Assembly (NCBI GenBank): GCA_017513195.1
Contig: JAFXGM010000041.1
Coordinates: forward strand, 62,001-126,000
Reading direction: 5' to 3'
Length of the DNA stretch: 64,000 nucleotides
Source: Clostridia bacterium
GTDB taxonomy: Bacteria; Bacillota; Clostridia; Oscillospirales; Acutalibacteraceae
Position numbers and translations under genes: made by a program. The notes under the pieces were generated by a model. It saw only the letters and a list, made by a program, of their open reading frames with translations. It had not been told where the DNA came from and did not search any database. Shown piece by piece: positions 20,047 through 36,364 of the stretch; position 1 is the stretch's first letter, and each line of letters begins with the position of its first letter.

Positions 20047-20143
20047 TTATTTATTAAGTGCTTCATTAACTGCAACAGCACAAGCAACAGTCATACCAAC
20101 CATTGGGTTGTTACCTGCACCGATAAGGCCCATCATCTCAACG
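20047..20143 (-). pseudogene. 3' remnant of the GGGtGRT gene at the left border of the element
   Basis: The minus strand encodes EMMGLIGAGNNPMVGMT-AVNEALNK and stop, the same last 31 or so residues as the intact gene ending at 35363. Differences between the copies are synonymous. The similarity stops at 20143, where element sequence begins. This is the original chromosomal gene end, separated by the insertion from the rest of the gene. Confidence 0.92.
20078..20118. repeat. attL core: 41-bp perfect direct repeat
   Basis: Identical over 41 bp to 35394-35434, within the duplicated GGGtGRT gene end. It marks the left crossover region of the integrated element. Confidence 0.88.
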
Positions 20144-20338
20144 CACTCTAAATCAGTAAATAAAAGACCTTTTTAGAACATAGCCCGAAAGCCTTATAAA
20201 ACCTTACTTTGTGACATTATAAAAATGTAAACTTAAATAATACTAAACACATCGTTTCAAGTTTTCTCAATTGCATTATAACGTGTTTGGATGTGTTTGT
20301 AAGCTATTTTTAAAATATTCTTTAAACACATATTAAAA
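20144..20338. other. Left-end element sequence with candidate recombinase arm sites
   Basis: Holds GCCCGAAAGCCTTATAAA at 20183-20200, a direct-repeat relative of 35332-35349 at the right end. AAACACAT occurs at 20245 and 20324, with inverted copies at 20281 and 20291; the right-end hairpin has related ACACATCAT arms. AAAAGACCT at 20163 is inverted as AGGTCTTTT at 35316. These are candidate integrase or Xis binding sites. Confidence 0.45.
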
Positions 20339-23300: not shown

Positions 23301-24019
23301 GTATCTTTATCGTCTGCACTTCCTTGTAATGAAACCTCTTGAGGAAGCTTAATCTCCTTAACTTTAAACCTTGAAGAAATTAACCTATATATCGTTGATA
23401 TTCCGCACAAACATCCAATAGCAAATAAAAATGCACAAATTAACGAAACTTGCTTAGAGAATTTTACCGTAGCACCTGCAACCACAATTTTATTAATCAA
23501 TAAAGAAAAAGATGAAGGCCAAAACACATAAAGTAAAATCGTAAAAATAAGCGAGAAAAAAAGCACGAATGCAAAAATACTCCAAAAACTAATCCGATGC
23601 AATTTTCTATATCTACTTTGAGGGATTTTTTTGTGACTTACTTTATAAAAAAGTTGTTTTAAAATTCCTTTCTCGATTTCTTCTTTGTCAAGTTCAATTA
23701 GTTGCTTTTCAAAATTTCCAACATCGTTTTTTGTTTCTTCTGCAAAAGTAGCCATTGAAATTTTTATTGATCGTTTTCTAGCTGACGGGTTGTTTTTTAA
23801 GAAAGTCTCTATAACACTACTTTTTCCCGAACCATACGGTCCAGAAAGGGCAATGTTTGTTGCTTTTTTACCATCAATTGCCCAGTTCAACGCATTCAAA
23901 TACTCGCTACCATTTGCAATTCTATCATCCGGAGTTAATGTAACATATTCCGTCTCTGATGGTTGGTTTAATCTACCTATATTAGATTTTTTAAATAAAT
24001 TTAATAAAAATTTGAACAT
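20339..24019 (-). CDS. YobI-like (KAP-related) membrane P-loop NTPase
   Basis: A 1226-aa protein. Walker A GPYGSGKS is at residues 60-67. Two predicted transmembrane helices (about 144-166 and 191-210) interrupt the NTPase, a KAP-family trait. Walker B lies in RIVFFEDLDRLN (about 259-270). The segment FVYAVKDDVFTDVDRTKFFDFIIPIVPIVNSTNS strongly recalls the YobI-like P-loop NTPase family. The remaining 850 residues are helical and repeat-like, as in large sensor or defence NTPases. AAGGAGAAGAAGG precedes the ATG. Its place at the edge of a defence-carrying element suggests an anti-phage role; that is inference. Confidence 0.85.
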   Translation of the reverse strand: MFKFLLNLFKKSNIGRLNQPSETEYVTLTPDDRIANGSEYLNALNWAIDGKKATNIALSGPYGSGKSSVIETFLKNNPSARKRSIKISMATFAEETKNDVGNFEKQLIELDKEEIEKGILKQLFYKVSHKKIPQSRYRKLHRISFWSIFAFVLFFSLIFTILLYVFWPSSFSLLINKIVVAGATVKFSKQVSLICAFLFAIGCLCGISTIYRLISSRFKVKEIKLPQEVSLQGSADDKDTVFNKNMDEIVYFFEETNYRIVFFEDLDRLNTTSIFVHLRELNMILNNYDAIKEPIVFVYAVKDDVFTDVDRTKFFDFIIPIVPIVNSTNSGDILLEKLNKSKQLKKQHNISESFIMDVSPFIADMRILQNIYNEFVVYKATLTTGQSLKLLDEPMLALIIFKNLYPRDFAELQKETGVVKQAFKDKESFISKKRQELQDRVNASSKILESIKTEAFSTVKSLKYAFLCEITNDMGIACSFTPSGKRTVDASSFLKNDYVIPDWSNINDCSGAYIRWNSSGTYQFNSSKFGNAYEKLINKYKTVSLIEDNKIDEEKIFIQETKRNIYNFSSKTLENLLNEYGVDAVLSQNVINNELLVFLLRRGYINEKYVDYINYFKGTSITTEDMNFILGIKNLSPKKYDYKLTRTELVIERLQPYEFEQEVIYNFDLLECLLSSNEYDEKLNLFIKQLSNGNDASWEFIDEFIDITKHKQGFIKILAKQWNKMWDSIFDNSVLTVERKFYYLSLLISYASIESIKCMDLNGNLTTFFVRNSDVLQRLNSIDDKKVIDTISSLNVKFTDIQIENVSTSVLDYIFDNNCYIINFEMIQHIVEYKNKKLVSQLKEKNYSTLIKLNYSPLLKYIEDNIGVYTDEIILLPSNTEEEFDSIIKLLELNVDSKCRYVQIIGNENFYVEDITAVCLNLFKENKEYVKSIWDTIITNGKLKPTWYNFERYWNYCGHTSVSIAYMCKNLDILVKDDSSCIDDYSFIKELITSDIDCESLSKLLCKLPWDEFDIELNTLDKDKVSIMVSQKYFKFDIERYNELSEDFPDLCVDFIIHNQYEYMAINEQIDMNSDLLENLVFDERFARSMAQKIMEKYCAKHMTVKIAKNLSSLNIDVGVEVFNAAWELLDTKQKERLMLENLNILDADKFEKCFSELDDPYNEFSKRGYRHEVYLDNTNENLLLAKRLQEVSYITSYEYKNRTKGDSNKKAIEVRVICCRVKAMF

Positions 24020-24517
24020 CCTTCTTCTCCTTTATAAACATACTATTTTACTTTATATTTTGTATAGTGATATGCGCAAGAAATATCTAGCTTAAAACAC
24101 ATCTTTTCACTTTGATTATATCGCATAATCTTCTAAAATTCAATGAATTTCCCTATGAAGATATTACTATAATTTATTCTCTGTACCGTAAATTTAAATT
24201 CATCTTATAAAATGCAAAAATATTTAAATACTACACTATGATCTGAACTTCGATAACAATCAAGTTTCATTTAAGCTAAAGTATACAAATGACAATATTT
24301 TGTATTTGTTGTTTAAAAAATTTAAATAGAAAGTGTATGTGAAATTCACGATTTAGTTATGTTTTATTACGCAATTAACCACCAATAAAACTTCAATCAT
24401 ATTTTCCTACCTTTCTAAAATTAAATATATTACAACATCTAAAAAATTGCTAAATTAAATGAAGTTATAAATGTACTGCCATAGTTATACTTAAATAGAT
24501 TGTGAGGCACGATTATT
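24020..24517. other. AT-rich intergenic region between divergent genes
   Basis: About 500 bp. A plausible minus-strand promoter for the NTPase gene has GCGCAA (24074-24079) and TTTATA (24052-24057) on the plus strand. No further gene, RNA or repeat was recognised. Confidence 0.4.
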
Positions 24518-24991
24518 GTGGATATTGATTCGCTTTTTGAAAGAGTTGTTAATAGATCATTATATAAACTTTTAAGTAAGCTAGATGTCACTCAGTTCAA
24601 AATGTTCTATAGTATCTTTGTACACTATTGGACAAATCACAAGCATTTTATTAGCACACAGAACTTCTTCAACCTCTGGTGCGAACTTAATGTTCTATGT
24701 GCCGAATTCAATAAAAGTTTTCCTAGTCCGTACGATGACCATTTACTTCTTAAATCTTTTTGTAAAGCGCACCCTTATTATTTTATAGACATACTGCCGA
24801 TAGAACTAATCGCAAAACTTTTTTCAGAACATCTAGATCAACACCTTGATACATTGTTGAACCTAATTGATATTATATATGAAGCAAACTCCTTAACTGC
24901 ACATCAATATATCATAGACAAATTTAATATTAAACATACTGCCGACGAACTTTTTTACGATTTAGAAGAACACATTAAATGTCACATGTAA
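24518..24991 (+). CDS. Hypothetical protein
   Basis: A 157-aa, mostly helical, acidic protein with a GTG start and only a weak ribosome site (GTGAGGC). It has many aromatic and His residues and no recognised motif. It lies divergent from the YobI-like NTPase gene inside the element. The coding signal is moderate: the frame is open and the protein composition is normal. It may be a small accessory or regulator of the neighbouring NTPase, but nothing in the sequence proves it. Confidence 0.5.
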   Translation: MDIDSLFERVVNRSLYKLLSKLDVTQFKMFYSIFVHYWTNHKHFISTQNFFNLWCELNVLCAEFNKSFPSPYDDHLLLKSFCKAHPYYFIDILPIELIAKLFSEHLDQHLDTLLNLIDIIYEANSLTAHQYIIDKFNIKHTADELFYDLEEHIKCHM

Positions 24992-25069
24992 ATTTATTTA
25001 GGGCCATAGTAATAACTATAGCCCTAATTTATTAATCTTTATAGACAACTAAAAGTATGTTTTAAAATT

Positions 25070-25564
25070 TTATTGTGTTTCTGTTAGTGTGTAATTAATA
25101 CTATTACGTTCATTTTTTTCATTAACATAATGTTTTAGCTCACAATAATTTAAATCATTTATACTTGAAGTTTCTTCATAAATAACTTTATATTTTCTTT
25201 TTTCAAATTTATTAAAATCATATTCTTCTATTGTATAAAGTTTTCTTTCGATAACATCCTGTACATCTTCATCATCATACCCCGAAAAACTTGCCACTGA
25301 CCCATTCATCCAATTGTTTTCACCATCTGGATCTTTTACAAGAGTTTCACAAAATGTTGATTCAGTATACTTTAGAATAACATTATCTTTAACAACAATT
25401 ATAAACTCATCATTCCAATCAAACGCTGATGTACAATCAGACAATTCCCCTATGCAACCAAAATAAACTTGTGGTACTTGATAACAAACATCATCTTCAC
25501 AAACAAAATCCTTCTTTTCCATTTCCGGTTTCATTGGAACCGAACCATTATAATAATTATTCAT
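25070..25564 (-). CDS. Hypothetical acidic protein
   Basis: A 164-aa protein, rich in Asp, Glu, Asn and Tyr, with five or so Cys. ATG 25564 is chosen because AAAAGGA lies 9 bases upstream; the ATG at 25573 is too close to it. No domain was recognised. It stands alone in the element between the 157-aa gene and the terminator and recombinase region. Confidence 0.5.
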   Translation of the reverse strand: MNNYYNGSVPMKPEMEKKDFVCEDDVCYQVPQVYFGCIGELSDCTSAFDWNDEFIIVVKDNVILKYTESTFCETLVKDPDGENNWMNGSVASFSGYDDEDVQDVIERKLYTIEEYDFNKFEKRKYKVIYEETSSINDLNYCELKHYVNEKNERNSINYTLTETQ

Positions 25565-25764
25565 AAACAACATTCCTTTTTATTATTTTTTCAAAGTACA
25601 TACGAAAATTTAATTTTAGAAATATCAAATCAACTATCCATCAACTCCTTTTAATTTTTATAAAATTAAAATATATTCACCTCCAAAATACTTTCTACAC
25701 TACTATACAGTAAAATATTTCACATTTTTATAAAATTTCAAAAAATTTTTCAAAAAACATAAAT

Positions 25765-25805
25765 AGCCCGCTACCCTATTTTAAGGTAGCGGGCTCTCTT
25801 CATTT
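25765..25805. terminator. Strong hairpin in the recombinase upstream region
   Basis: Perfect 11-bp GC-rich stem AGCCCGCTACC/GGTAGCGGGCT with tail CTCTTCATTT. Transcription from the left would be stopped before the recombinase operon. Confidence 0.7.
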
Positions 25806-25814
25806 ATATAAGGA

Positions 25815-25931
25815 AATAAGTATCAAAACAAACCTTTACAATATTTGTATTAAAGGGGGCTCCCGAAACAAGTAAAACACGACATAATATAAGTATCGAA
25901 AGTAACTTTAGTTTGTTTCAATACTGAAAGG
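25815..25931 (+). promoter_or_regulatory. Upstream region of the serine recombinase, possible res-like site
   Basis: Contains AAGTATCAAAA and AAGTATCGAAA direct repeats, AAACAAACCTTTAC and its inverted partner CTTTAGTTTGTTT, and a CATAATATAAG -10-like box. It precedes the AAGGAG of the recombinase. A recombinase binding or crossover site is plausible but unproven. Confidence 0.4.
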
Positions 25932-25941
25932 AGTACAAATT

Positions 25942-26646
25942 ATGATTTATGGTTATGCTCGTGTATCAACTACACATCAAAGATTAGGTCGACAGATTAC
26001 TAATATCTTGTCTATCTATCCCAAAGCTACTATCATTCGTGAGTTCTATACCGGTACCACTCAAAACCGACCACAATGGGAAAAGTTTATAACACAGGTT
26101 ACTAAGGGTGATACTATTGTTTTTGATAGTGTCTCACGTATGGCCCGTAACAGCGAGGAAGGATTTAAAGATTATAAATCACTTTATGAATCCGGAATAA
26201 ACCTTATCTTTCTAAACGAGCCATTAATTGATAGTAGTGTTCTAGACGCCACTAAAAGCAAATTACTAGATGTAACTATCGAAACCGGTAACGCAGCTAT
26301 AGATTCATTCTTTAAAGGTAATATAAAACTCATTAATGATTTCTTATTAGCCATTGCAGAAGAACAAATCAAAACTGCTTTTGACCAAGCTGAAAAAGAA
26401 GTTACTGACCTACACTCACGTATTAGTCAGGGTATTAGAGAAGCTCGTAAGAACGGAACACAAATCGGTCTTATTAAAGGAACAACCTTAGTTACTGATA
26501 AGTCTATCAAATGTAAAGAAATAATAAAAAAGCATTCCATAGACTTTGGTGGAACACTTAGTGATAAGGAGGTAATCATACTTTGTAATATTTCTAGGAA
26601 TTCTTACTATAAATACAAAAAAGAAATTAAATTAGAAATTGCTTAA
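25942..26646 (+). CDS. Serine recombinase (resolvase/invertase family)
   Basis: A 234-aa site-specific recombinase. The N-terminal resolvase domain starts MIYGYARVSTTHQ with the nucleophile Ser9, and DSVSRMARNSEEGF supplies the conserved Arg region. The long linker helix and a C-terminal HTH-like segment (LSDKEVIILCNISRNSYYKYKKEI) complete a small resolvase. Between them is an insertion of about 60 residues relative to the usual Tn3 type. It heads a four-gene plus-strand operon. It may resolve element multimers or invert DNA; integration itself is more likely done by the tyrosine recombinase. Confidence 0.9.
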   Translation: MIYGYARVSTTHQRLGRQITNILSIYPKATIIREFYTGTTQNRPQWEKFITQVTKGDTIVFDSVSRMARNSEEGFKDYKSLYESGINLIFLNEPLIDSSVLDATKSKLLDVTIETGNAAIDSFFKGNIKLINDFLLAIAEEQIKTAFDQAEKEVTDLHSRISQGIREARKNGTQIGLIKGTTLVTDKSIKCKEIIKKHSIDFGGTLSDKEVIILCNISRNSYYKYKKEIKLEIA

Positions 26647-26665
26647 CTGAAGGAGGAAAAGTAAT

Positions 26666-26845
26666 ATGGGACTTTACGGACCTACTAAGACTTGGAGGAT
26701 AATATATAGTCCAAAAGTTTTAAACGCTGGAATAGTCGGAGTTGCTTTTGTGGAGGCAGATACTCAACACTGGGCTATATACACATTTAAACAACAATAC
26801 GATGGACAGTATTCTACGATTACATCATGTGAAGAATTTAAATAG
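26666..26845 (+). CDS. 59-residue small protein
   Basis: A short gene (MGLYGPTKTW...) with an excellent AAGGAGG ribosome site 9 bases upstream, 19 bp after the recombinase stop and 24 bp before the next gene. The protein is aromatic-rich with no charged clusters and no recognised domain. Operon spacing and the ribosome site are the main evidence that it is real. Confidence 0.65.
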   Translation: MGLYGPTKTWRIIYSPKVLNAGIVGVAFVEADTQHWAIYTFKQQYDGQYSTITSCEEFK

Positions 26846-26869
26846 TTAATCATTACGGAGGGAAAAACA

Positions 26870-27229
26870 ATGGAAATTAAGGACATCAAAAACATTGCTA
26901 CCGAATGGCACCAGATAACATGGGAAGTAATTGAATTCAAAAATATAGATCTTAAAAAAATTCAAAAAGTCTTTGAAGATACATATACACTATTAAAAAA
27001 ATACAAATCCGAAAAACTAGTACCCAAAGAACTGAGCGCGGTACTTTTAGAAATGCTTGACTTCTGTTGGTGGGTGTGTGATTTAGAAGAATCATCTATT
27101 CATTATTTATATAAGGATATAACTACCCTAGTAGCGAATCTAAATAAATACTTCCTAACTCATGACACCGACACAACTACAGTAGAAGAAATCATAATAG
27201 ATAAATTAAACCAAATTTCAAGGAGTTAA
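26870..27229 (+). CDS. Hypothetical helical protein
   Basis: A 119-aa protein, predicted all-helical and acidic, with conserved-looking ITWEVIEF and MLDFCWWVCDLEESS segments. CGGAGGG precedes the ATG. It is the third gene in the recombinase operon. No family was recognised. Confidence 0.6.
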   Translation: MEIKDIKNIATEWHQITWEVIEFKNIDLKKIQKVFEDTYTLLKKYKSEKLVPKELSAVLLEMLDFCWWVCDLEESSIHYLYKDITTLVANLNKYFLTHDTDTTTVEEIIIDKLNQISRS

Positions 27230-27240
27230 TATATGTAATG
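27219..27240 (+). promoter_or_regulatory. Start-stop (ATG-TAA) overlapping the DUF4314 start codon
   Basis: AAGGAG (27220-27225) is ideally spaced for the ATG at 27233, but that ATG is followed at once by TAA (27236-27238), and the gene's own ATG shares the last A (27238-27240). Initiation at 27233 would stop and could re-initiate at 27238. Confidence 0.5.
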
Positions 27241-27471
27241 AAAATTATAGATAAAAAGGCATTAGAAAACCTACGTAAACAGTATCCTCCTGGAACAAGA
27301 GTTGAGTTGGTAAAAATGAAGGATCCTTATAACACTAAACTTACTCCGGGTAGTAAAGGTACGGTTGTTAATGTAGATGACATCGGAACAATACACATCT
27401 CTTGGGACTGCGGTTCTTCATTAGGTGTCGTTTTGGGAGAAGATGATTATACAACGATAGATAATAAATAA
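27238..27471 (+). CDS. DUF4314 domain protein
   Basis: A 77-aa protein matching DUF4314: LRKQYPPGTRVELVKMKDPYNTKLTPGSKGTV and HISWDCGSSLGVVLGEDDY, a small SH3-like beta fold frequent in plasmids and integrative elements of Bacillota. It is the last gene of the recombinase operon. The start overlaps an ATG-TAA start-stop. Function unknown. Confidence 0.88.
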   Translation: MKIIDKKALENLRKQYPPGTRVELVKMKDPYNTKLTPGSKGTVVNVDDIGTIHISWDCGSSLGVVLGEDDYTTIDNK

Positions 27472-27554
27472 TATGTAGGAATGACACTTCACAAAACAAA
27501 TTCGAATAAATAAAATAACCAAATACGCCGAAATAAATTCATCAATTTTACATC

Positions 27555-27583
27555 TTGTTTAATATATAGAAAAATGCTATAAT
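27555..27583 (+). promoter_or_regulatory. Promoter of the HNH nuclease gene
   Basis: TTGTTT at 27555-27560, 17-bp spacer, consensus TATAAT at 27578-27583, about 30 bp before the ATG at 27614. Confidence 0.7.
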
Positions 27584-27613
27584 GAATCAACCTAAAATCA
27601 AAGGTGGTTCATT

Positions 27614-28210
27614 ATGACTAAAACAGAATTATTTTTACAATTAGCGCAACCAGATGAGAATGGTTGTAGTCGATGGATAAATACAAGTGAATTTGTCGGT
27701 ACATATGCAGATCTTAAATTTGGCAATGGGGCTTCTTGGGCGCGTAAAGAATCTACTCTAGCCAAAAGATACATAATTGAGTTTGACAAGTCAGTTACAC
27801 CTGGCAACGGAATTGATAGGATACGTTTAGCTGGTTTTAATAATGGTGATTTCTCTCAACATATTCGAGCCGACATAAAACGGGAAATCTCAAGTCGGCG
27901 TTGTGTTGTTTTAGGAACTTCCAACCCTGAAGTTGATCATAAAAATGGTATGAAAAACGAAGGGCGTGTTATGCGCAACGAAGATCAACAACTTTCGGAC
28001 TTTCAGCCATTAAGCAAGGCAGCTAACGACGCCAAACGTCAATACTGTAAAGAGTGTCGACGTACCGGAATAAGATATGATGCTAAAAAGCTTGGCTATC
28101 CTATTTCTTATTATGCCGGTGGTCCAAATCATAATATGGAAGAGAATGCTTGTATTGGTTGCTATTGGTATGACCCAATAGAATTCAAGAAACATTTAAA
28201 AGAAAAATAA
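27614..28210 (+). CDS. HNH (H-N-N) nuclease, probable Type II-like restriction endonuclease
   Basis: A 198-aa protein with a beta-beta-alpha-metal nuclease core: EVDHKNG (Asp108-His109), DFQPLSK, and AANDAKR with Asn138. A four-Cys zinc ribbon follows (CKEC 145-148 and CIGC 180-183). The N-terminal 90 residues would supply target recognition. It has its own promoter and is convergent with two DNA methyltransferase genes, separated only by a shared terminator. The pairing of an HNH nuclease with one m5C and one amino-methyltransferase recalls Type IIS systems of the MnlI kind with an asymmetric target. The target sequence cannot be read from the protein. Confidence 0.75.
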   Translation: MTKTELFLQLAQPDENGCSRWINTSEFVGTYADLKFGNGASWARKESTLAKRYIIEFDKSVTPGNGIDRIRLAGFNNGDFSQHIRADIKREISSRRCVVLGTSNPEVDHKNGMKNEGRVMRNEDQQLSDFQPLSKAANDAKRQYCKECRRTGIRYDAKKLGYPISYYAGGPNHNMEENACIGCYWYDPIEFKKHLKEK

Positions 28211-28212
28211 TT

Positions 28213-28248
28213 AAAAAGTGAAGTAGGAATGCCTACTTCACTTTTTTA
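28213..28248. terminator. Bidirectional terminator between nuclease and methyltransferase genes
   Basis: Perfect stem AAAAAGTGAAGTAGG/CCTACTTCACTTTTT with a 4-base loop and T-runs on both strands. Confidence 0.9.
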
Positions 28249-29018
28249 AATATAAATATGTACTCATGATCAAAAACATAAAAATCACTAGCTAATGCGC
28301 GGTATCTCCATATTGCCCCTTGATTTGCTTTGCCTCGTGTACGATCGAAGTTCTTAACTAAAATAGCTTTCATCACAAATCCTTTTTCAAGAAATAAATT
28401 CATACAATGAAATCCTAAAGGAATCAACTGACTGTTAGCGTATTTATCTCCAATCACAACTGCACAGTAACGGTTTTTCTCTAACACCTTAGTAGTATTA
28501 TCAATGACTTCTCCAAATGAAGTAAGAAATTCTTCTAGTGTTTCACTATTTGACAAATCTCTATTATCTTCAGAAAACTTAATAATATCCCAATAAGGCG
28601 GATGCATAATTACAAACTGAACATTTTTAATACCATAATAGTCAACCATTTTTTTAGTGTCAATTGTTTTACTATCTGCCACCAATATATTAGTTGAACA
28701 TTTAGGATTGTGTTCTAATTTTATTCTTTCACGAACCTCTTCTGCAACAGTTTTTTGTAGTTCTATCCCTATAGAATTACGACCCATTCTTTGAGCTTCT
28801 ATAAGCGATGTGCCACTTCCCATAAATGGATCTAATATCCAATCCCCTTTTTTAGTATAACGACTGAACAATTGCCTAGGAACTTGAGGAATAAAGTTAC
28901 CATGATAACTAGCATTGTGGATTCCAGAATTTTCTCTATGGAATGACCAAAATGAATTAGTTAATATATCAGTATATTCTTTCCATTTTTTAGTATCTAT
29001 ATCATTATATCTAGGCAT
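28233..29018 (-). CDS. DNA (N4-cytosine or N6-adenine) methyltransferase
   Basis: A 261-aa SAM-dependent DNA methyltransferase. The order is a motif X-like region (SGIHNASYHGNFIPQVPRQLF), motif I (DPFMGSGT, about 63-70), motif II (GIEL) and then catalytic motif IV as HPPYW (139-143), with His where Ser, Asp or Asn is usual. The start at 29018 shares its A with the stop of the m5C gene (TAATG), so the two are coupled; the longer frame into that gene is rejected. With the HNH nuclease it would protect one strand of an asymmetric site. Confidence 0.88.
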   Translation of the reverse strand: MPRYNDIDTKKWKEYTDILTNSFWSFHRENSGIHNASYHGNFIPQVPRQLFSRYTKKGDWILDPFMGSGTSLIEAQRMGRNSIGIELQKTVAEEVRERIKLEHNPKCSTNILVADSKTIDTKKMVDYYGIKNVQFVIMHPPYWDIIKFSEDNRDLSNSETLEEFLTSFGEVIDNTTKVLEKNRYCAVVIGDKYANSQLIPLGFHCMNLFLEKGFVMKAILVKNFDRTRGKANQGAIWRYRALASDFYVFDHEYIFIFKKVK

Positions 29019-30286
29019 TAGTCCTTTTCCTCCAGTTGAGCTAATCCCTTCATAACAGCAATACCAATTGCCTTCCCTAATAAAGCAGGAACCGCATTGC
29101 CGATTTGTACTAGTTGCCATTTTTTAGATCCTTGGAATATAAAATCATCAGGAAAAGATTGCAGTGCAGCCAATTCTCTTGGCGTAAGTACACGTGGTAA
29201 TTTAGGGTGTATGTTAACACCACCATGATTCTCCTTAACTGTACAAGACGGTTTGTCCCAAGGCGATTTTTTCCAAGCATCAGAATAGTTGCCATATAGG
29301 CTTTGTCCCTCAGGTACTGCGGCAATTTGTTCCATCATTTTTTCAGAATGTCGTGTAAAGATATGATTGATTTGTTTATTCTCTGGAATAGACATAAATC
29401 TTTTGATACCTTCACCCAAAGTAACATAATTTTCAGGTGAGAAGATAGGTTTAGGATGGTAATTTTTTAATCCATGTCTATTACCTATAAAGATTACTCT
29501 CTTTCTAATTTGAGGAACGCCATAATCAGCGCTATTTAGAACTGTAACATTTATATCATATCCAGCTTCTTTATAGTCATTGATAATTTTGGTTTCAACT
29601 TTACCATCAAGCATAGAACGAAGGCCTTCAACATTTTCCATAACAACAAAATCAGGTTGAATATGTTTGACAATCTCAAGCATTTCCAAATAAAGACTGT
29701 TTCTTGGGTCTGTTACCACACGATGTCCAGCCATACTAAATCCTTGACATGGGAATCCCCCAACAATTAAATGTATATGTTTATCTGAAACAGAATCATA
29801 TAATTCCTGTTTTACAGATTCTTCTCTAATGTCCCTTGTTTGAACATTTTCATTAAACCCTTTTTGTTCAACAAAGTTATATTTATATGTAGCAACAGCT
29901 TCAGGCATTATTTCTACTGAAGCAACTGGTGTAAATCCTGCCATCGTAAGACCACAACTAAGACCACCTGCCCCAGAAAACAAATCAATAAAATTAAAAC
30001 CATTACGATAGTTAACGTTAGACCATCCATCGTATACCCAGCTATCGGTTATATCAACCCAATTTACTTTATCCGAAGTTTGCTCCTCAACAATAGTTTC
30101 ATTAAAGATATTATCCTGTTCAGGGTCTAAATCAGATATTAACCACTTATTATAGTTTTCTTTTGTTATACGATAGCAGTTACCTATTTTATCAGCTTTC
30201 AACTTACCAGCAGCAATGTGTCTACGAATGGTTTTTTGACTTTGTCCACTCATTCGTGCAGTCTCAGCAATTGAATAAAAATCCAT
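29018..30286 (-). CDS. DNA (cytosine-5) methyltransferase with N-terminal excisionase-like HTH
   Basis: A 422-aa fusion. Residues 1-50 (FYSIAETARMSGQSQKTIRRHIAAGKLKA...) form a helix-turn-helix of the HTH_17/excisionase type. After a 45-residue linker comes a full m5C methyltransferase: motif I FIDLFSGAGGLSCGL (about 99-113), motif IV GGFPCQGFS with Cys180, motif VI ENVEGL, motif VIII QIRKRVIFIGNR, and motifs IX-X ending in QIGNAVPALLGKAIG. The promoter is 30316-30344 on the minus strand, in a region with repeated TGTCCA words. The HTH could make the enzyme an autorepressor that also controls the divergent operon. Confidence 0.95.
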   Translation of the reverse strand: MDFYSIAETARMSGQSQKTIRRHIAAGKLKADKIGNCYRITKENYNKWLISDLDPEQDNIFNETIVEEQTSDKVNWVDITDSWVYDGWSNVNYRNGFNFIDLFSGAGGLSCGLTMAGFTPVASVEIMPEAVATYKYNFVEQKGFNENVQTRDIREESVKQELYDSVSDKHIHLIVGGFPCQGFSMAGHRVVTDPRNSLYLEMLEIVKHIQPDFVVMENVEGLRSMLDGKVETKIINDYKEAGYDINVTVLNSADYGVPQIRKRVIFIGNRHGLKNYHPKPIFSPENYVTLGEGIKRFMSIPENKQINHIFTRHSEKMMEQIAAVPEGQSLYGNYSDAWKKSPWDKPSCTVKENHGGVNIHPKLPRVLTPRELAALQSFPDDFIFQGSKKWQLVQIGNAVPALLGKAIGIAVMKGLAQLEEKD

Positions 30287-30315
30287 AAAACAACCTCCAA
30301 AAATGCTATGTGTCC

Positions 30316-30344
30316 ATTATACATGTAATTTGTCCAATTGTCAA
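30316..30344 (-). promoter_or_regulatory. Promoter of the methyltransferase pair, with candidate operator
   Basis: Reading the minus strand: TTGACA, 17-bp spacer, TATAAT. TGTCCATTA and TGTCCAATT on the plus strand (30311 and 30331) are direct repeats overlapping the boxes, a possible binding site for the HTH domain of the m5C enzyme. Confidence 0.75.
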
Positions 30345-30449
30345 TGGCCGCAACAACAAATTTTGCCCTACATATAAAAAATATTTTGGTAATATTGTTA
30401 AAATCTATGATATATATTTGAAATATTTTAAATATCTATCAAAAATATA

Positions 30450-30478
30450 TTGACAATATTTCAAAAATGTTGTAATAT
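30450..30478 (+). promoter_or_regulatory. Promoter of the GHKL-ATPase operon
   Basis: TTGACA at 30450-30455, 17-bp spacer, TAATAT at 30473-30478. The 215-bp divergent region is rich in AATATTTT words. Confidence 0.75.
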
Positions 30479-30502
30479 AGTGTCAAACGGAGGTGTCATA
30501 TT

Positions 30503-30718
30503 ATGGAAACTAAACGTGATAAGTTTGTTAGATTGGCAGAAAATAGAATGGAAAGTGTCCTTAAAGGTATCAGTCTTTTAGGTAATTTAGCAAACACTAG
30601 CAATTATGACTATACTGAAGCTGATGTTGCTAAGATTATAAAAACTCTCAAGACAGCTGTTGCTGATCTTGAAAGAACATATAGTTCTTCTCAAAAAAAC
30701 ACAAAGTTCAAACTGTGA
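30503..30718 (+). CDS. Small helical protein heading the GHKL-ATPase operon
   Basis: A 71-aa basic, all-helical protein (KRDKFVRLAENRMESVLKGISLLGNLANTSNYDYTEADVAKII). I recall small proteins of this pattern (LAE-R, LGNL-N-SNY-YT--DV-KI) in front of MutL/MORC-like ATPases in restriction loci, but cannot name a family. CGGAGGTG precedes the ATG. Its stop is 11 bp before the ATPase start, so they are co-translated. It could be a partner subunit or a controller protein. Confidence 0.75.
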   Translation: METKRDKFVRLAENRMESVLKGISLLGNLANTSNYDYTEADVAKIIKTLKTAVADLERTYSSSQKNTKFKL

Positions 30719-30729
30719 GGTGAAACATT

Positions 30730-32583
30730 TTGAAGTTAGGTTGGTATTTTAGTAATGAATCTAGTCCTTCTGATGAATTGGTTGATAAACTGGCCGATTC
30801 TAAATTTGGTATGGATAGATGGACATCGTTTTCTCGAGAAATTATTCAAAACTCACTTGATGCGTGCGATGACGAATGTAGACCTGTCGAGGTTACTTTT
30901 GATTTAAATAATAGTTTAACAATTAATGACATTCCTGGTGGTACATATACTAGATACGTATTGGAACGTTGTGTAACTCAAGCTGCTAATAAACAAACAA
31001 AGCAAGCGTATAAAAAAGGATTGGAAATACTCAATAAACCTAAAGTATATTGTTTAAAAGTTTCAGACAAAAATACAAAAGGTGTTCAAACAGGACGCGA
31101 CCAAGCGTGGGGAGCCTTTGTTTATGACGAAGGTAGATCTGTAAAGCAAAGACCTGTCTCTGCCGGTAGTCATGGTGTTGGAAAAAAAGTGCCTTTTATT
31201 ATAAGCACTTGCAACACTGTTTTCTATGCTACTAAAAACAAATATGTAATCAATGATATAGAATACAGCGATATACTTTTACAGGGAAAAACAATGTTAA
31301 TTAATTGGGAAGATTCCAATGGGCAAGGAAAGAGTCCAAAAGGATGGTTTGGCGTTCTTAATGAATCTGACCCAGACCGAAAAAAGCGTATACTCCCTAT
31401 TAAAAATGATAGCATTCAAAATATTCATCCATATTTTGTTCGTAAAGATGATTTTGGTACTGATGTAATTATGATTGGCGTTAACGCATATGGTACAGAA
31501 GATGATATTCAAAAAGCTATTATCAGTTCAGTATTAGAAAATTTCTTTATAGCTATTAAAGAAAACAAGCTAAAGGTTAATGTTTTTGGAGTAGAAATCC
31601 AATGTGGTACATTGGATAAAATTTTTCAAACTTATTACATACCCACTAAATCTCTCAAAAACTCTTTACGTGATTTATTACGTATTTATTCTCAAGAACC
31701 AGTTATACTTCCGGTTATACGTCACAATAACGAAATTGGTTCTATTAGATTGTATTTTGAAGCTGAAAGTGAAGTTAATAAAAAATACTTCACAATTGTT
31801 CGCAGTCATGGTATGAAAATATGCGAAAACTATATAAGTAGTGCTGATAAAGCTTTTTCTGCTATTGCTATTATCGAAGGCAAGAAGTTAAATGAATTAT
31901 TGGCAGATCTCGAAAATGCAGCACATGACGACTTCGTCACAAATGATCCTAATATCGACTATAGCGAAGATGCACTTGGTGCTCACAGAACGTTAATCAA
32001 AGTCATCAAAGATTATATTTTAGAACAGACTAAAATTGATGAAGGTGAGGATCAAAAAATTGAAGGCTTAAGTGAAATTTTAGCTGTGCCTGGATTCACC
32101 CCCAAAATTACGAAAGGCAATTCAAAAGCAAGAATTAAACGCAATAAAGTTAATAAGAAAAAAAGACGCAAACCTGTCACTCCTGAACCACAACCTGAAC
32201 CAGGTCCTACACCAGATCCCAATCCAGATCCAAAACCAGAGCCTAAGAAGCGCAAGGTAAAAGTCGAAAAATTTTATGACGCATACGCACTTGATCCAAT
32301 TCTTTTAAAAACGGATGATGGTTATCTTTTGCGATTTAAAGTTAAACATGATATGAAAGACTGTGAGTTTAGAATTAGATCCATCAACTCTGACGATAAA
32401 ATCGATAATTCTATCAATGATTTACTTATATCAGCAACAGATGGTTGGAAAAAATATAAAATTCAAGATGGATGTATATCAAAAATGAAACTAACTAAAG
32501 ACCATTTATATGAAATTCAAATAAAAACTAAACGCAACATTAAGTATCGTTTGACCGCAGAATTATGGTTCAAGGAGGCATAG
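30730..32583 (+). CDS. MORC/MutL-like GHKL ATPase of a restriction-type locus
   Basis: A 617-aa protein with a GHKL ATP-binding fold: N-box REIIQNSLDA (Glu37, Asn41, Asp44), G1 box SDKNTKG (112-118) and G2 box GSHGVGKKVPF (146-156). The following region (GTDVIMIGVNAYG; SSVLENFFIAIKENKLKV) matches the ATPase type found beside DNA methylases in bacterial restriction islands and linked to eukaryotic MORC proteins. A very basic segment (KARIKRNKVNKKKRRK) and a Pro-x repeat linker (about 481-505) lead to a C-terminal beta-rich domain of about 110 residues. The TTG start has GAGGTGA ahead. Likely an ATP-driven DNA clamp. Confidence 0.85.
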   Translation: MKLGWYFSNESSPSDELVDKLADSKFGMDRWTSFSREIIQNSLDACDDECRPVEVTFDLNNSLTINDIPGGTYTRYVLERCVTQAANKQTKQAYKKGLEILNKPKVYCLKVSDKNTKGVQTGRDQAWGAFVYDEGRSVKQRPVSAGSHGVGKKVPFIISTCNTVFYATKNKYVINDIEYSDILLQGKTMLINWEDSNGQGKSPKGWFGVLNESDPDRKKRILPIKNDSIQNIHPYFVRKDDFGTDVIMIGVNAYGTEDDIQKAIISSVLENFFIAIKENKLKVNVFGVEIQCGTLDKIFQTYYIPTKSLKNSLRDLLRIYSQEPVILPVIRHNNEIGSIRLYFEAESEVNKKYFTIVRSHGMKICENYISSADKAFSAIAIIEGKKLNELLADLENAAHDDFVTNDPNIDYSEDALGAHRTLIKVIKDYILEQTKIDEGEDQKIEGLSEILAVPGFTPKITKGNSKARIKRNKVNKKKRRKPVTPEPQPEPGPTPDPNPDPKPEPKKRKVKVEKFYDAYALDPILLKTDDGYLLRFKVKHDMKDCEFRIRSINSDDKIDNSINDLLISATDGWKKYKIQDGCISKMKLTKDHLYEIQIKTKRNIKYRLTAELWFKEA

Positions 32584-32584
32584 T

Positions 32585-33445
32585 ATGAACGGTTATCCTT
32601 ATCCTGTATTAACAGAATTTGATTCAGCTTACAAGTCAACTGCCGTCTTCAATATCGAATTCTTAAAATATGTTTACAACGAAGACAAGGTTATTTTAAC
32701 TATAGGCTGTGCATTAGATTCTGAAACCCTAAAAAAACACATTCAAGACCGTAACGCAGAATTAGTAATTAAAACAGTTACTGGAATTCGTTCTCATCTT
32801 TTTCATATAGAGGATATTTGCGACAGTATTGATATTGAAATTAATAGTGAAGATATACGTGCTAACGACACCATAACACTAACAGCATATGTTGTAACAA
32901 AAAATTCATTTGAACTTACTGTAACAGATGAAATGATTGAAGAATATTTCGGTAGTAACTTTTCGATCCTCCTAAAAAAAGGAGACATACTGGCTATTTC
33001 TAATAATGAGAAGCTCAATTATAATACAACCACAAATGATTTTATTATGATTAGTAGTTCTGAGGAAATGACGGGTAAAGGTATTCGTATAAGTCTTAAA
33101 GATGATAACCACATCTACGTTTTGGTAAGTCCAGAATTTAAACGTGCTTATGCTACACTGAATAATCCTAAAATTTCAACTATGCTAGGCAGCCATCTAG
33201 TGTTTGAAGCATTCGTTTATACATTGGTTGAAATCGCACAAGATAAAGAAGATCATTCAAACAAAGAATGGTATCGTTTGTTTACACAAGCACTTGAAAT
33301 AACGGGTGATGATATAGACAGTTTCAAGGCAAGCGCCATAGATGACCATAGCGTCGATATGACATATATTTTTAAGATTGCACAAGAAATGATCAACAAC
33401 TCTCTTGAAACTACTGTTATCACTGTAAAAGAGAATGGAGGTTAA
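32585..33445 (+). CDS. Unrecognised protein of the GHKL-ATPase operon
   Basis: A 286-aa acidic protein, 1 bp after the ATPase stop, with GGAGGCATAGT as ribosome site. The first half looks beta-rich (VILTIGCALDS, TITLTAYVVTKNSFELTV). The second half is helical (SHLVFEAFVYTLVEIAQDKEDHSNKEWYRLFTQALEITG). No catalytic nuclease, helicase or methylase motif is evident. Tight coupling to the ATPase gene suggests a complex. It is the main unknown in the system. Confidence 0.8.
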   Translation: MNGYPYPVLTEFDSAYKSTAVFNIEFLKYVYNEDKVILTIGCALDSETLKKHIQDRNAELVIKTVTGIRSHLFHIEDICDSIDIEINSEDIRANDTITLTAYVVTKNSFELTVTDEMIEEYFGSNFSILLKKGDILAISNNEKLNYNTTTNDFIMISSSEEMTGKGIRISLKDDNHIYVLVSPEFKRAYATLNNPKISTMLGSHLVFEAFVYTLVEIAQDKEDHSNKEWYRLFTQALEITGDDIDSFKASAIDDHSVDMTYIFKIAQEMINNSLETTVITVKENGG

Positions 33446-33447
33446 GT

Positions 33448-34200
33448 ATGTTAATTAAATTGTGCAAAATCAAAAAAGATAGATTTGACGAATTGCGTAA
33501 AAGCATTACCCAAACCTTTGAAACAACAGATACTCTTGATTTTCCCGAGGAAATAATCGAATCAAACTCGGAACCAATTTTAATTAATGGTAACCAAGTT
33601 GAATTAGAAATCGATATTAACAAATATCTAAATATAGCAAAAGATTCTACTTTTGGTTATACAAAGTTTGCAAAAATTGGTATGGAATTACATAAAGATA
33701 TTAAATTCGATAATGCCGATATACCAAGGAACGTTCTTTACGAGAAGGAGTTTTGGGCATACCTTTCTATGACTCATTTTAAAGACATCGTTAAAGAACT
33801 TCGATTAAAAGATTCTGGCAGTATAACCGAAAACAAAATAAAGCAATTTTATTTTAATGCAGGAGAAATTTCCAGAACAGGATTGTTGTTCTTGTGGGTA
33901 ATGGTTGACCGTCTTAATTCTAAAGATGATTTTGAAATAACACATACTGCTTTTGAATTTGTTGATCCAGTTAAAGCTATTTTGGAAAGAACTATGAGCA
34001 AAAATCCTACGATACTACGAGCATTTGTTCAAGGAATTATAAACAATAAAAAAGATCCTAGATTTAAAAGCGATAAATTTCGAAGTAAAGTACCGTCTCA
34101 TATAAGTTGCTATGCTAGTGTAAATGTTTTAGATGTTTTAGATTATGACGAACTGGTTGCCATAATAACAGAACAACAAAAAGCAATAATTTCAGAATAA
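33448..34200 (+). CDS. DUF6339-like protein of the GHKL-ATPase operon
   Basis: A 250-aa protein starting 2 bp after the previous stop with GGAGG ahead. It resembles DUF6339 proteins in KEFWAYLSMTHFKDIV, KQFYFNAGEISRTGLLFLWVMVDRL, AILERTMSKNPTILRAFVQGI and the final SHISCYASVNVLDVLDYDELVAII. That family has no established function and appears near methyltransferase and ATPase genes, as far as I recall. No catalytic motif can be pointed to. It ends the operon. Confidence 0.7.
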   Translation: MLIKLCKIKKDRFDELRKSITQTFETTDTLDFPEEIIESNSEPILINGNQVELEIDINKYLNIAKDSTFGYTKFAKIGMELHKDIKFDNADIPRNVLYEKEFWAYLSMTHFKDIVKELRLKDSGSITENKIKQFYFNAGEISRTGLLFLWVMVDRLNSKDDFEITHTAFEFVDPVKAILERTMSKNPTILRAFVQGIINNKKDPRFKSDKFRSKVPSHISCYASVNVLDVLDYDELVAIITEQQKAIISE

Positions 34201-34223
34201 TTATATATTGTTTTAATTCATTA

Positions 34224-34268
34224 AAAAGTAGATGACCTTTTCTATTTATATGGCCATCTATTTTTTAT
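34224..34268 (+). terminator. Probable terminator of the GHKL operon
   Basis: Imperfect stem AAAAGTAGATGACC/GGCCATCTATTTTTT around an AT-rich loop, with a T-run. Confidence 0.55.
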
Positions 34269-34276
34269 TTATCACA

Positions 34277-35215
34277 TCACTTCTTTAACGATATATGTTT
34301 CCTTTCACTGAATTTATCAAGTACGTTTATTTCATCAACCTGCTTTGCCACATCACTTACTAATAGGTTTATATAGTTCTGTGTTATATCTAAACTTGAA
34401 TGTCCAAGCAGTTTAGATAAAGAAACAACGTTTCCACCACTTAAAATCCATTGTTTAGAAAATGTATGTCTATATCTATGAATACCTGTTGTTGATACTC
34501 CCCGACTCTTATTATATTCATATAGTTTGTGATAGCATGTGCTCTTGATTAATTGCTGTCCGAAGACATTACAAAACAAGTAATCTTCATTACTTTTATG
34601 TTGTCGGTATTTTAAGTACTCCTTTAAGATATTTACCATAGTATAATTTAAAGGAACAATCAAAGGTTTTCTATTCTTCGTAACATTTACATACACAACA
34701 CTATTATCAAAATCAATATCTTTCACTTTAATGTTCATCAAACTTCTTTGTCTGACAGCCGTAGAAAACAAGAAGTTGGTCATAACCCAACACTGATATT
34801 CGGTAAAGGAACATTTCTTTAGATTAGGCTTTTTTAGTAGTCTTTTAAGTTCTTCTTCGGTGTAGGTTTCAATATGATTCTTATCAACCTTGATTGCCTT
34901 CATCTTAAACCTGTGTATATATTCCTCATCCATTAGATAGTGCATGGTAGTTATAAAGTCCCTAAGATATGAATTTATACTGACGTCATTCTTTAAAGTT
35001 GACCGTAGATGTAAAACATATCTTTTATAAGCTTCTTCATCAATTTCTTCTATAGGTGTATCGGGGTCAAAGAACTTAAAAAACTGAACATAACTTTGTC
35101 TATAATGGTTTATAGTTCCTTGTCTTAAATTTCTTTGACGACAGTAGTCTAAATATTTGTCACACCCTTCCTTAAAAGTAATAGATTTTGTCGATTTCAT
35201 TTTTAATTTTTTCAT
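34277..35215 (-). CDS. Tyrosine recombinase (integrase)
   Basis: A 312-aa phage-type integrase. An N-terminal SAM-like arm domain (YLDYCRQRNLRQGTINHYRQSYVQFFKFF) precedes the catalytic domain. Active-site residues are visible: Arg in STAVRQRSLMNI, His-x-x-Arg in IHRYRHTFSKQWI, His in LLGHSSLDITQNYI, and the nucleophile Tyr in that last segment. GGAGG precedes the ATG. It lies 180 bp inside the right border (attR) and reads away from it, the usual place for the enzyme that inserts the element. It is the best candidate for the GGGtGRT gene-end integrase. Confidence 0.95.
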   Translation of the reverse strand: MKKLKMKSTKSITFKEGCDKYLDYCRQRNLRQGTINHYRQSYVQFFKFFDPDTPIEEIDEEAYKRYVLHLRSTLKNDVSINSYLRDFITTMHYLMDEEYIHRFKMKAIKVDKNHIETYTEEELKRLLKKPNLKKCSFTEYQCWVMTNFLFSTAVRQRSLMNIKVKDIDFDNSVVYVNVTKNRKPLIVPLNYTMVNILKEYLKYRQHKSNEDYLFCNVFGQQLIKSTCYHKLYEYNKSRGVSTTGIHRYRHTFSKQWILSGGNVVSLSKLLGHSSLDITQNYINLLVSDVAKQVDEINVLDKFSERKHISLKK

Positions 35216-35249
35216 TGTAAAAAACCTCCATTTTCATACAAAAAAATAT

Positions 35250-35297
35250 AGACACATCATTGAAGATTACTCAAAAATGATGTGTCTAACTTTTTTA
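35250..35297. terminator. Bidirectional terminator supplied by the element
   Basis: Stem AGACACATCAT/ATGATGTGTCT with T-runs beyond it on both strands (AACTTTTTT and ATATTTTTTT). After insertion it ends the GGGtGRT transcript and insulates the integrase gene. Confidence 0.75.
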
Positions 35298-35362
35298 ATA
35301 TTGATTTTTTATAATAGGTCTTTTACAAGTTGCCCGAAAGTCTTAAAAAGGCTTGAAAACCC

Positions 35363-36364
35363 TTACTTATTAAGCGCTTCGTTAACTGCAACTGCACAAG
35401 CAACAGTCATACCAACCATTGGGTTGTTACCTGCGCCAATCAAGCCCATCATCTCTACGTGAGCAGGAACTGAAGATGAACCTGCAAACTGAGCGTCAGA
35501 GTGCATACGGCCCATTGTATCGGTCATACCGTAAGAAGCGGGACCAGCAGCCATATTGTCTGGGTGGAGTGTACGGCCTGTACCGCCGCCGGATGCTACT
35601 GAGAAATACTTCTTGCCCTGTTCGATACATTCTTTCTTATAAGTACCTGCAACAGGATGCTGGAAGCGGGTTGGGTTGGTTGAGTTACCTGTAATAGATA
35701 CGTCAACGCCCTCTTTGTGCATAATTGCAACGCCTTCGCGAACGTCGTCTGCACCGTAGCAACGAACCTTTGAACGCTCACCGTTTGAGTAAGCAGTTTC
35801 GTTAACAATTGTAAGCTCACCTGTGTAGTAGTCAAACTTAGTCTGAACATAGGTAAAGCCGTTAATACGTGAAATAATCTGAGCAGCATCCTTGCCACGA
35901 CCGTTAAGAATAACACGGAGTGGCTCTTTACGTGCTTTGTTTGCGCTTCTGGCTAGACCGATAGCGCCTTCAGCAGCAGCGAATGATTCGTGACCTGCAA
36001 GGAATGCGAAGCACTTGGTCTCTTCGCGAAGAAGCATTGCGCCCAAGTTACCATGGCCTATACCAACCTTACGGTCGTCGGCAACAGAGCCCGGAATACA
36101 GAATGACTGAAGACCAAGACCGATTTTTTCTGCAGCTTCAGCAGCAGATGCAACCTTATCTTTAATAGCGATTGCGCAGCCTACAACGTAAGCCCAAGCA
36201 GCGTTTTCAAAGCAGATTGGCTGAATGCCCTTAACAATGCCGTAAGCGTCAACGCCTGCATCGTCACAAATCTGCTTAGCCTCTTCAATAGAAGCGATGC
36301 CGTGCTTGCTGAGTTCTGCGTTTATTTGATTAATTCTTCTTTCATAGCTTTCAAATAATGGCAT
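35363..36364 (-). CDS. GGGtGRT protein
   Basis: A 333-aa conserved protein of unknown activity, named for its motif, here SVASGGGTGRTLHPDNMA. Other conserved stretches are SFCIPGSVADDRKVGIGHGNLGAMLL and GMTDTMGRMHSDAQF. It starts 18 bp after the Fe-S scaffold-like gene in one operon and has AGGGAGGTAAC as ribosome site. The last 97 bp are duplicated at 20047; because the element entered here, this gene end is probably element-supplied but codes the same residues, so the protein is intact. Confidence 0.93.
   Translation of the reverse strand: MPLFESYERRINQINAELSKHGIASIEEAKQICDDAGVDAYGIVKGIQPICFENAAWAYVVGCAIAIKDKVASAAEAAEKIGLGLQSFCIPGSVADDRKVGIGHGNLGAMLLREETKCFAFLAGHESFAAAEGAIGLARSANKARKEPLRVILNGRGKDAAQIISRINGFTYVQTKFDYYTGELTIVNETAYSNGERSKVRCYGADDVREGVAIMHKEGVDVSITGNSTNPTRFQHPVAGTYKKECIEQGKKYFSVASGGGTGRTLHPDNMAAGPASYGMTDTMGRMHSDAQFAGSSSVPAHVEMMGLIGAGNNPMVGMTVACAVAVNEALNK
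35394..35434. repeat. attR core: 41-bp perfect direct repeat
   Basis: Identical to 20078-20118. It lies inside the coding end of the intact GGGtGRT gene. Confidence 0.88.

Follow-up and report, generated by a model that had tools for sequence, protein, structure and literature searches.

A divergent PDC-M33 module with a putative paraMORC2-type ATPase beside an IceA-type restriction-modification locus on a clostridial mobile element

A PDC-M33 relative beside a restriction-modification locus

The DNA analysed here is a stretch of 64,000 nucleotides (hereafter the window) from a Clostridia bacterium of the Acutalibacteraceae (GenBank assembly GCA_017513195.1, contig JAFXGM010000041.1, positions 62,001 to 126,000). 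Judged from its sequence, it carries a divergent member of the PADLOC candidate system PDC-M33 with an apparent paraMORC2-type GHKL ATPase, next to an IceA-type restriction-modification (R-M) locus, and both appear to sit on a mobile element. Proteins A, B and C match the three protein models of PDC-M33, in the same order and in one gene run; the window lineage is divergent, and a small protein (S) encoded upstream of A as well as the methylases lie outside the three models. No paper on PDC-M33 or on DUF6339 was found in the literature. New here are S as a fourth gene, methylase genes inside the operon and the swapping of partners, the parts themselves being of known kinds.

A preliminary description of this DNA had listed seven genes (HNH nuclease, amino-methyltransferase, methyltransferase with a helix-turn-helix (HTH) domain for 5-methylcytosine (m5C), small protein, ATPase, a protein of 286 amino acids (aa) and a DUF6339-like protein). 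All seven predicted open reading frames (ORFs) were found in the window (ORF list, Pfam and PADLOC searches), and the families, including DUF6339, were matched:

27614..28210 (+): IceA-type HNH restriction endonuclease, 198 aa (Pfam ICEA, E 3.7e-68)
28233..29018 (-): N4/N6 amino-methyltransferase (Pfam N6_N4_Mtase, 7.6e-24; PADLOC MTase_II, 9.3e-108)
29018..30286 (-): HTH_17 domain fused to m5C DNA methyltransferase, 422 aa (Pfam DNA_methylase, 9.1e-71; HTH_17, 2.3e-8)
30287..30502: putative divergent promoter region (promoter scan, repeat search, comparison with locus L002)
30503..30718 (+): S, 71-aa protein (18-row family alignment)
30730..32583 (+): A, GHKL-type ATPase with paraMORC2 motif, PDC-M33A, 617 aa (PADLOC, 5.4e-82)
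32585..33445 (+): B, PDC-M33B, 286 aa (PADLOC, 4.8e-27)
33448..34200 (+): C, DUF6339 protein, PDC-M33C, 250 aa (Pfam DUF6339, 2.2e-13; PADLOC, 1.4e-14)

The gaps are 11 bp between S and A, 1 bp between A and B and 2 bp between B and C; the start codon of A is TTG, and GGAGG-type ribosome sites precede B and C. The methylase operon on the minus strand (HTH_17-m5C, then N4/N6) is convergent with the IceA gene and divergent from S-A-B-C. The N4/N6 methylase gene adjoins the IceA-family gene; it probably starts at 29018, in a TAATG overlap with the m5C stop codon, the listed ORF starting at 29120. The absence of a helicase, claimed earlier, was confirmed: no helicase family matched the proteins scanned between 20.3 and 35.2 kb (ten with Pfam, nine with PADLOC) or, in a further search, the ORFs at 24518 and 25070 and S.

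The closest relative, L002 from another Clostridia metagenome-assembled genome (MAG), has all seven genes in identical order and orientation, plus one additional IceA-like gene. Protein identities to the window span 55-92%: the methylases, IceA (83%) and S stand at 79-92%, A, B and C at 55-71%, which looks as though the ATPase complex had changed faster than the R-M part. The additional gene (L002:6818-7477) lies between those for IceA and the N4/N6 methylase; its product is another IceA-like protein, diverged from the first and without a counterpart in the window.

The ATPase

The alignment of A (29 rows) conserves the N box (E37, Q40, N41, D44), D113xxTxG118, the G box and T244. E37, Q40, D44, D113, T116, R358, E395 and H399 are present in 29/29 rows and N41 in 28/29. 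E395 and H399 form an ExxxH motif, which is described as the mark of paraMORC2 in the consulted part of Iyer, Abhiman and Aravind (2008, PMC2292703). None of the 29 members matched a Pfam HATPase family, and HATPase_c_3 did not match S-A-B-C-type modules within their own genomes. For profile comparisons we used sets labelled, from their sequences, as MutL-type and HtpG-type. The N-terminal profile of A matched the MutL-type profile with an E-value of about 7e-4 and the N box at the centre of the match (hhalign probability only about 26%), whereas 20 column shuffles gave 0.13 to 0.83. E-values were 0.002-0.003 with the HtpG-type set, 0.02-0.2 with single MORC-like proteins and 5e-4 to 8e-4 with one HtpG-like protein. 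Full-length hhalign comparisons were weak (MutL-type 0.0087, HtpG-type 0.023) versus 0.23-0.5 for three control profiles. The GHKL label given to A earlier stands on its conserved motifs and a weak profile match, not on a Pfam family, and A may be classed as a paraMORC2-type GHKL ATPase. In the tree of A, the window groups with L002 on a long branch that stands apart and whose placement is unsure; the window protein is 16-26% identical to the other aligned A proteins except that of L002.

Further ATPases were seen. An ATPase in L118 (G625, contig 10) with a stronger HATPase_c_3 match (4.2e-23) lies about 2 kb from an m5C methylase, and L025, on a plasmid of the archaeon Halobacterium, has two divergent A-type ATPases, one of them adjoining an m5C methylase.

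Related loci and their methylases

The B profile matched in 8/398 genomes of a phylum sample and in 24/189 genomes of one family. Together with plasmid, viral-contig and MAG loci, the sampled genomes gave a table of 50 loci, among them the fragments L078, L079 and L084. Three plasmid searches returned 24, 21 and 24 largely overlapping records, from which 12 stretches were examined; a further search returned a phage record. Dropped were L005, L006 and L007 (short matches, largely to a proline-rich linker), L003 and L004 (the longer L035 and L036 were used), L010 and L011 (near copies of L026 and L027), and L090, L091 and L093-L099 (viral contigs already in the set).

An m5C methylase gene lies within 5 kb in 20/50 loci (the window and 19 others), and S lies upstream of A within 2 kb in 20/50. 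The methylase was found in 16/20 loci with S versus 4/30 without it; counted by clusters at 60% identity (13 with both, 4 with S only, 3 with m5C only, 14 with neither), Fisher's test gave p 0.0016. In the sampled genomes, 10/33 loci are linked to m5C versus 0.34 expected at random positions, and 8/20 sequence clusters versus 0.21 expected (1.04% per locus, from 55 m5C genes with pieces merged by hand, in 31 genomes totalling 77.4 Mb by rounded sizes). The m5C gene lies within the module in L083 and L086, separating S from A, and in L024 it comes immediately behind C.

The restriction enzymes differ from locus to locus: IceA in the window and L002, a MutH/Sau3AI type in L008, one shared type II enzyme in L012, L022 and L034, an AlwI type in L023 and L026, and an NgoFVII type in L030. 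Other methylases near modules are of the Dam type (L026) or of type I (L027, L085). Vsr genes occur in 8/50 loci, all of which also have m5C within 5 kb, and a helicase adjoins A in L028. In L092, an ORF 1.9 kb away without a match to the Dam profile resembles a D12 adenine methylase on inspection by eye.

A genus labelled g405 carries A-B-C without S or methylase (L066-L074, L079, L080), in L068 between queA and tgt, and A-B-C may have a non-defence role there. Broken module copies were seen in the same genus (L079, L080, L081).

The divergent promoter region

The two divergent operons are separated by 216 bp. A promoter scan found a perfect promoter-like site on the minus strand (TTGACA-17-TATAAT, 30344-30316), on the methylase side, and a good one on the plus strand (TTGACA-17-TAATAT, 30450-30478), on the S-A-B-C side, although such sites as a class are not in excess (35 observed versus 37.4 in shuffles). 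A direct repeat ending in TGTCCA with 20-bp spacing (30303, 30323) overlies the minus-strand site. In L002, the minus-strand site is conserved together with its repeat, and so is the -35 on the plus strand, whereas the plus-strand -10 differs in letters and the middle of the region has diverged. In M.SsoII-type enzymes, an HTH-bearing m5C methylase governs its own promoter and that of the restriction gene.

Proteins B, C and S

AlphaFold2, run on eight B sequences, gave a model of modest confidence (predicted local distance difference test, pLDDT, 70.9; predicted template modelling score, pTM, 0.45), in which B is predicted to consist of a beta-rich N-terminal and a helical C-terminal domain. 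This fold had no Foldseek match at E<=1e-3. Among the best 50 of 1297 Foldseek matches, most were cytokine-receptor and antibody-type domains, which we take to be beta-sandwiches, with TM-scores to the query that do not exceed 0.26; no nuclease or helicase was named among the 50. Likewise, no Pfam family matched more than one B member, and no notable profile match in the PDB was obtained. B, called unrecognised in the preliminary description, resembles no known nuclease or helicase in these searches and matches PDC-M33B.

Neither A nor B matched a nuclease family in Pfam (the DUF4263 nuclease domain was absent from A as well), and A, B and C had no notable PDB sequence match. In alignments of B and C, whose members other than L002 share 13-22% identity with the window, no acidic or basic residue is invariant; residues kept in every row occur in A, not in B or C. 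W229 is the only polar or aromatic residue of B at at least 80% of rows. In C, tryptophans, D91, D154 and one asparagine are kept in 20 to 24 of 24 rows, D91 and D154 in 20/24. No conserved nuclease site is evident in B or C, and C may be kept as a possible nuclease candidate. As a query, C found nothing in viral contigs. In the L. salivarius plasmid module L011, a group II intron reverse transcriptase separates two pieces of the B gene.

Searches of Pfam, PHROGs and PADLOC with S gave nothing convincing; the best match was that of one family member to phrog_35258 (unknown function, E 3.1e-4). S without B was found in 9/14 S-bearing genomes in one search and in 2/5 in another. S-family proteins stand just upstream of a ResIII helicase in L105, of SNF2 and DEAD helicases with an AAA protein in L108, and of an 840-aa unknown with an N4/N6 methylase in L116. 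An 80-aa seed from L. salivarius was rejected as S, being a membrane-type protein, and was left out of the S model.

Possible functions of the module

We tentatively favour, at slightly less than even chances, the reading that S-A-B-C is a portable antiviral effector module, driven by the paraMORC2-type ATPase and coupled to methylation. Relatives of the module often stand beside differing DNA methylases, and it thus looks like a portable antiviral add-on rather than a one-off. The preference is based on the PDC-M33 matches, the GHKL and ExxxH motifs of the 29 A proteins, the excess of m5C linkage over chance, the m5C genes inside or after the module, the differing nuclease partners, the partly kept promoter region, the lack of a known-fold match for B and the confinement of every-row residues to A. 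In the proposed mechanism, host DNA would be marked by the divergent HTH-m5C methylase, whose HTH domain would also balance the methylase operon against S-A-B-C. Where A meets unmarked DNA, it would dimerise into a clamp that closes in an ATP-dependent manner; B and C would serve as scaffold or sensor subunits, and S would be an adaptor. This clamp would bring a partner nuclease to bear, here most likely IceA, or lock the DNA. The module would then reinforce a conventional type II pair made up of IceA and the N4/N6 methylase. The interpretation given in the preliminary description, a restriction-type locus whose four coupled genes may be one complex using methylation status as a signal, is partly supported.

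Several points weigh against this. Thirty of the 50 loci, some cut by contig ends, have no m5C methylase within 5 kb; 12 of the thirty are g405 loci, around which Pfam searches for four methylase families likewise detected none over that distance. The chance estimate draws random positions instead of comparing with other defence genes, whereas R-M genes cluster in islands. The linkage of S to m5C, which looks significant by clusters, is not significant with the tree taken into account (p about 0.125), and an exclusive coupling of the two was rejected. Finally, complex formation, methylation sensing and phage protection by S-A-B-C are all inferred.

It is quite possible, though we would not expect it, that two independent systems are simply adjacent, IceA and one or both methylases being a full type II system and S-A-B-C a separate defence sharing the element. 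The element also carries a YobI/Tmn-type ATPase, A-B-C exists without a methylase nearby, and asymmetric targets often require two methylases; modification of both strands is needed in the published example of HpyAV, an HNH enzyme whose recognition site is asymmetric (PMC2816704, as far as the part used here goes). However, the m5C genes within or abutting the module in three loci, the partly conserved divergent promoter region and the m5C linkage above chance speak for a closer tie. The m5C methylase could also have S-A-B-C itself as its restriction part, with a nuclease site unlike the recognised ones. Six loci (L064, L075, L083, L086, L088, L089; L086 and L089 with Vsr) indeed combine m5C and S-A-B-C without a restriction enzyme recognised by seed searches, but they were judged by these searches only, with several contigs ending nearby. 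We consider this unlikely, given the missing invariant acidic or basic residues in B and C (D91 and D154 of C notwithstanding), the lack of a known fold for B and the negative nuclease searches.

About as improbable is an accessory role in repair, in which the MutL-like ATPase would aid Vsr-type repair of T:G mismatches caused by m5C and so track m5C methylases for genome upkeep. The presence of m5C at all eight loci with Vsr would fit this, the copy between queA and tgt would fit housekeeping, and for relatives found outside R-M contexts a part in repair was put forward by Iyer et al. (PMC2292703, in the text at hand). Yet 12 of the 20 m5C-linked loci, the window among them, have no Vsr in the fetched stretch (some of these being short), and some modules stand near Dam-type or type I methylases instead. 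An equally improbable idea is a bacterial version of eukaryotic MORC silencing that works without a nuclease: m5C would mark self, and the S-A-B-C clamp would topologically trap and compact unmarked DNA, so that invading DNA would be silenced instead of cut. This would explain why some loci have m5C and S-A-B-C without a recognised restriction enzyme and why B and C lack invariant residues of a catalytic type.

Comparison with known systems

Prokaryotic MORC relatives were tied to restriction systems in 2008 (Iyer et al., PMC2292703). The paraMORC2 proteins described there share with A the GHKL motifs, the conserved ExxxH and R-M neighbourhoods with methylases and Vsr. However, a superfamily II helicase, missing at the window locus, is the common partner in their operons, and B, C and S are not among the partners named in the portion of that text considered. 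VcSduA, a Shedu protein with a GHKL domain (paraMORC3; PMC12137116, in part), likewise uses a GHKL ATPase in phage defence, but has a DUF4263 nuclease within the same protein, whereas A has no nuclease-domain match. In the HEF_HK/Response_reg_2 elements, a paraMORC-related ATPase is found near type II R-M genes and m5C methylases, but these elements have their own two-component-like domains (PMC8011034, passages used), to which nothing at the window locus matched. The IceA1/NlaIII enzymes share the IceA Pfam family and an adjoining methylase; their specificity, according to a title cited there, is CATG (PMC2816704, same part), and the window enzyme is related to them by Pfam family.

In the literature found, VcSduA is the one prokaryotic MORC relative with a defence test (PMC12137116, as excerpted). 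Reading of methylation by a MORC-like ATPase in bacteria is the proposed ancestry of eukaryotic MORC function (PMC2292703, same portion). Because the window locus is compact and divergently arranged, has a small gene as its fourth member and belongs to modules whose partners are naturally swapped, it allows asking directly whether such an ATPase reads bacterial DNA methylation.

The mobile element

The R-M locus and S-A-B-C appear to lie on a mobile DNA island, with these further features:

20078..20118: left 41-bp direct repeat, putative attachment (att) site, perfect repeat of 35394-35434
20339-24019: YobI-like ATPase, 1226 aa (PADLOC Tmn match, 3.5e-70)
25942-26646: serine resolvase (library match)
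34277..35215 (-): tyrosine integrase of the element (Pfam Phage_integrase, 1e-30)
35394..35434: right 41-bp direct repeat, within the 3' end of the ORF 35363-36364 (-)

The repeats enclose 15.4 kb (20078-35434). The repeats, of which the right one falls inside an ORF at its 3' end, and the stretch's own tyrosine integrase together suggest an integrative element. The G+C content per 2-kb window is 27-35% across 20 to 36 kb and 36.5-45.8% elsewhere.
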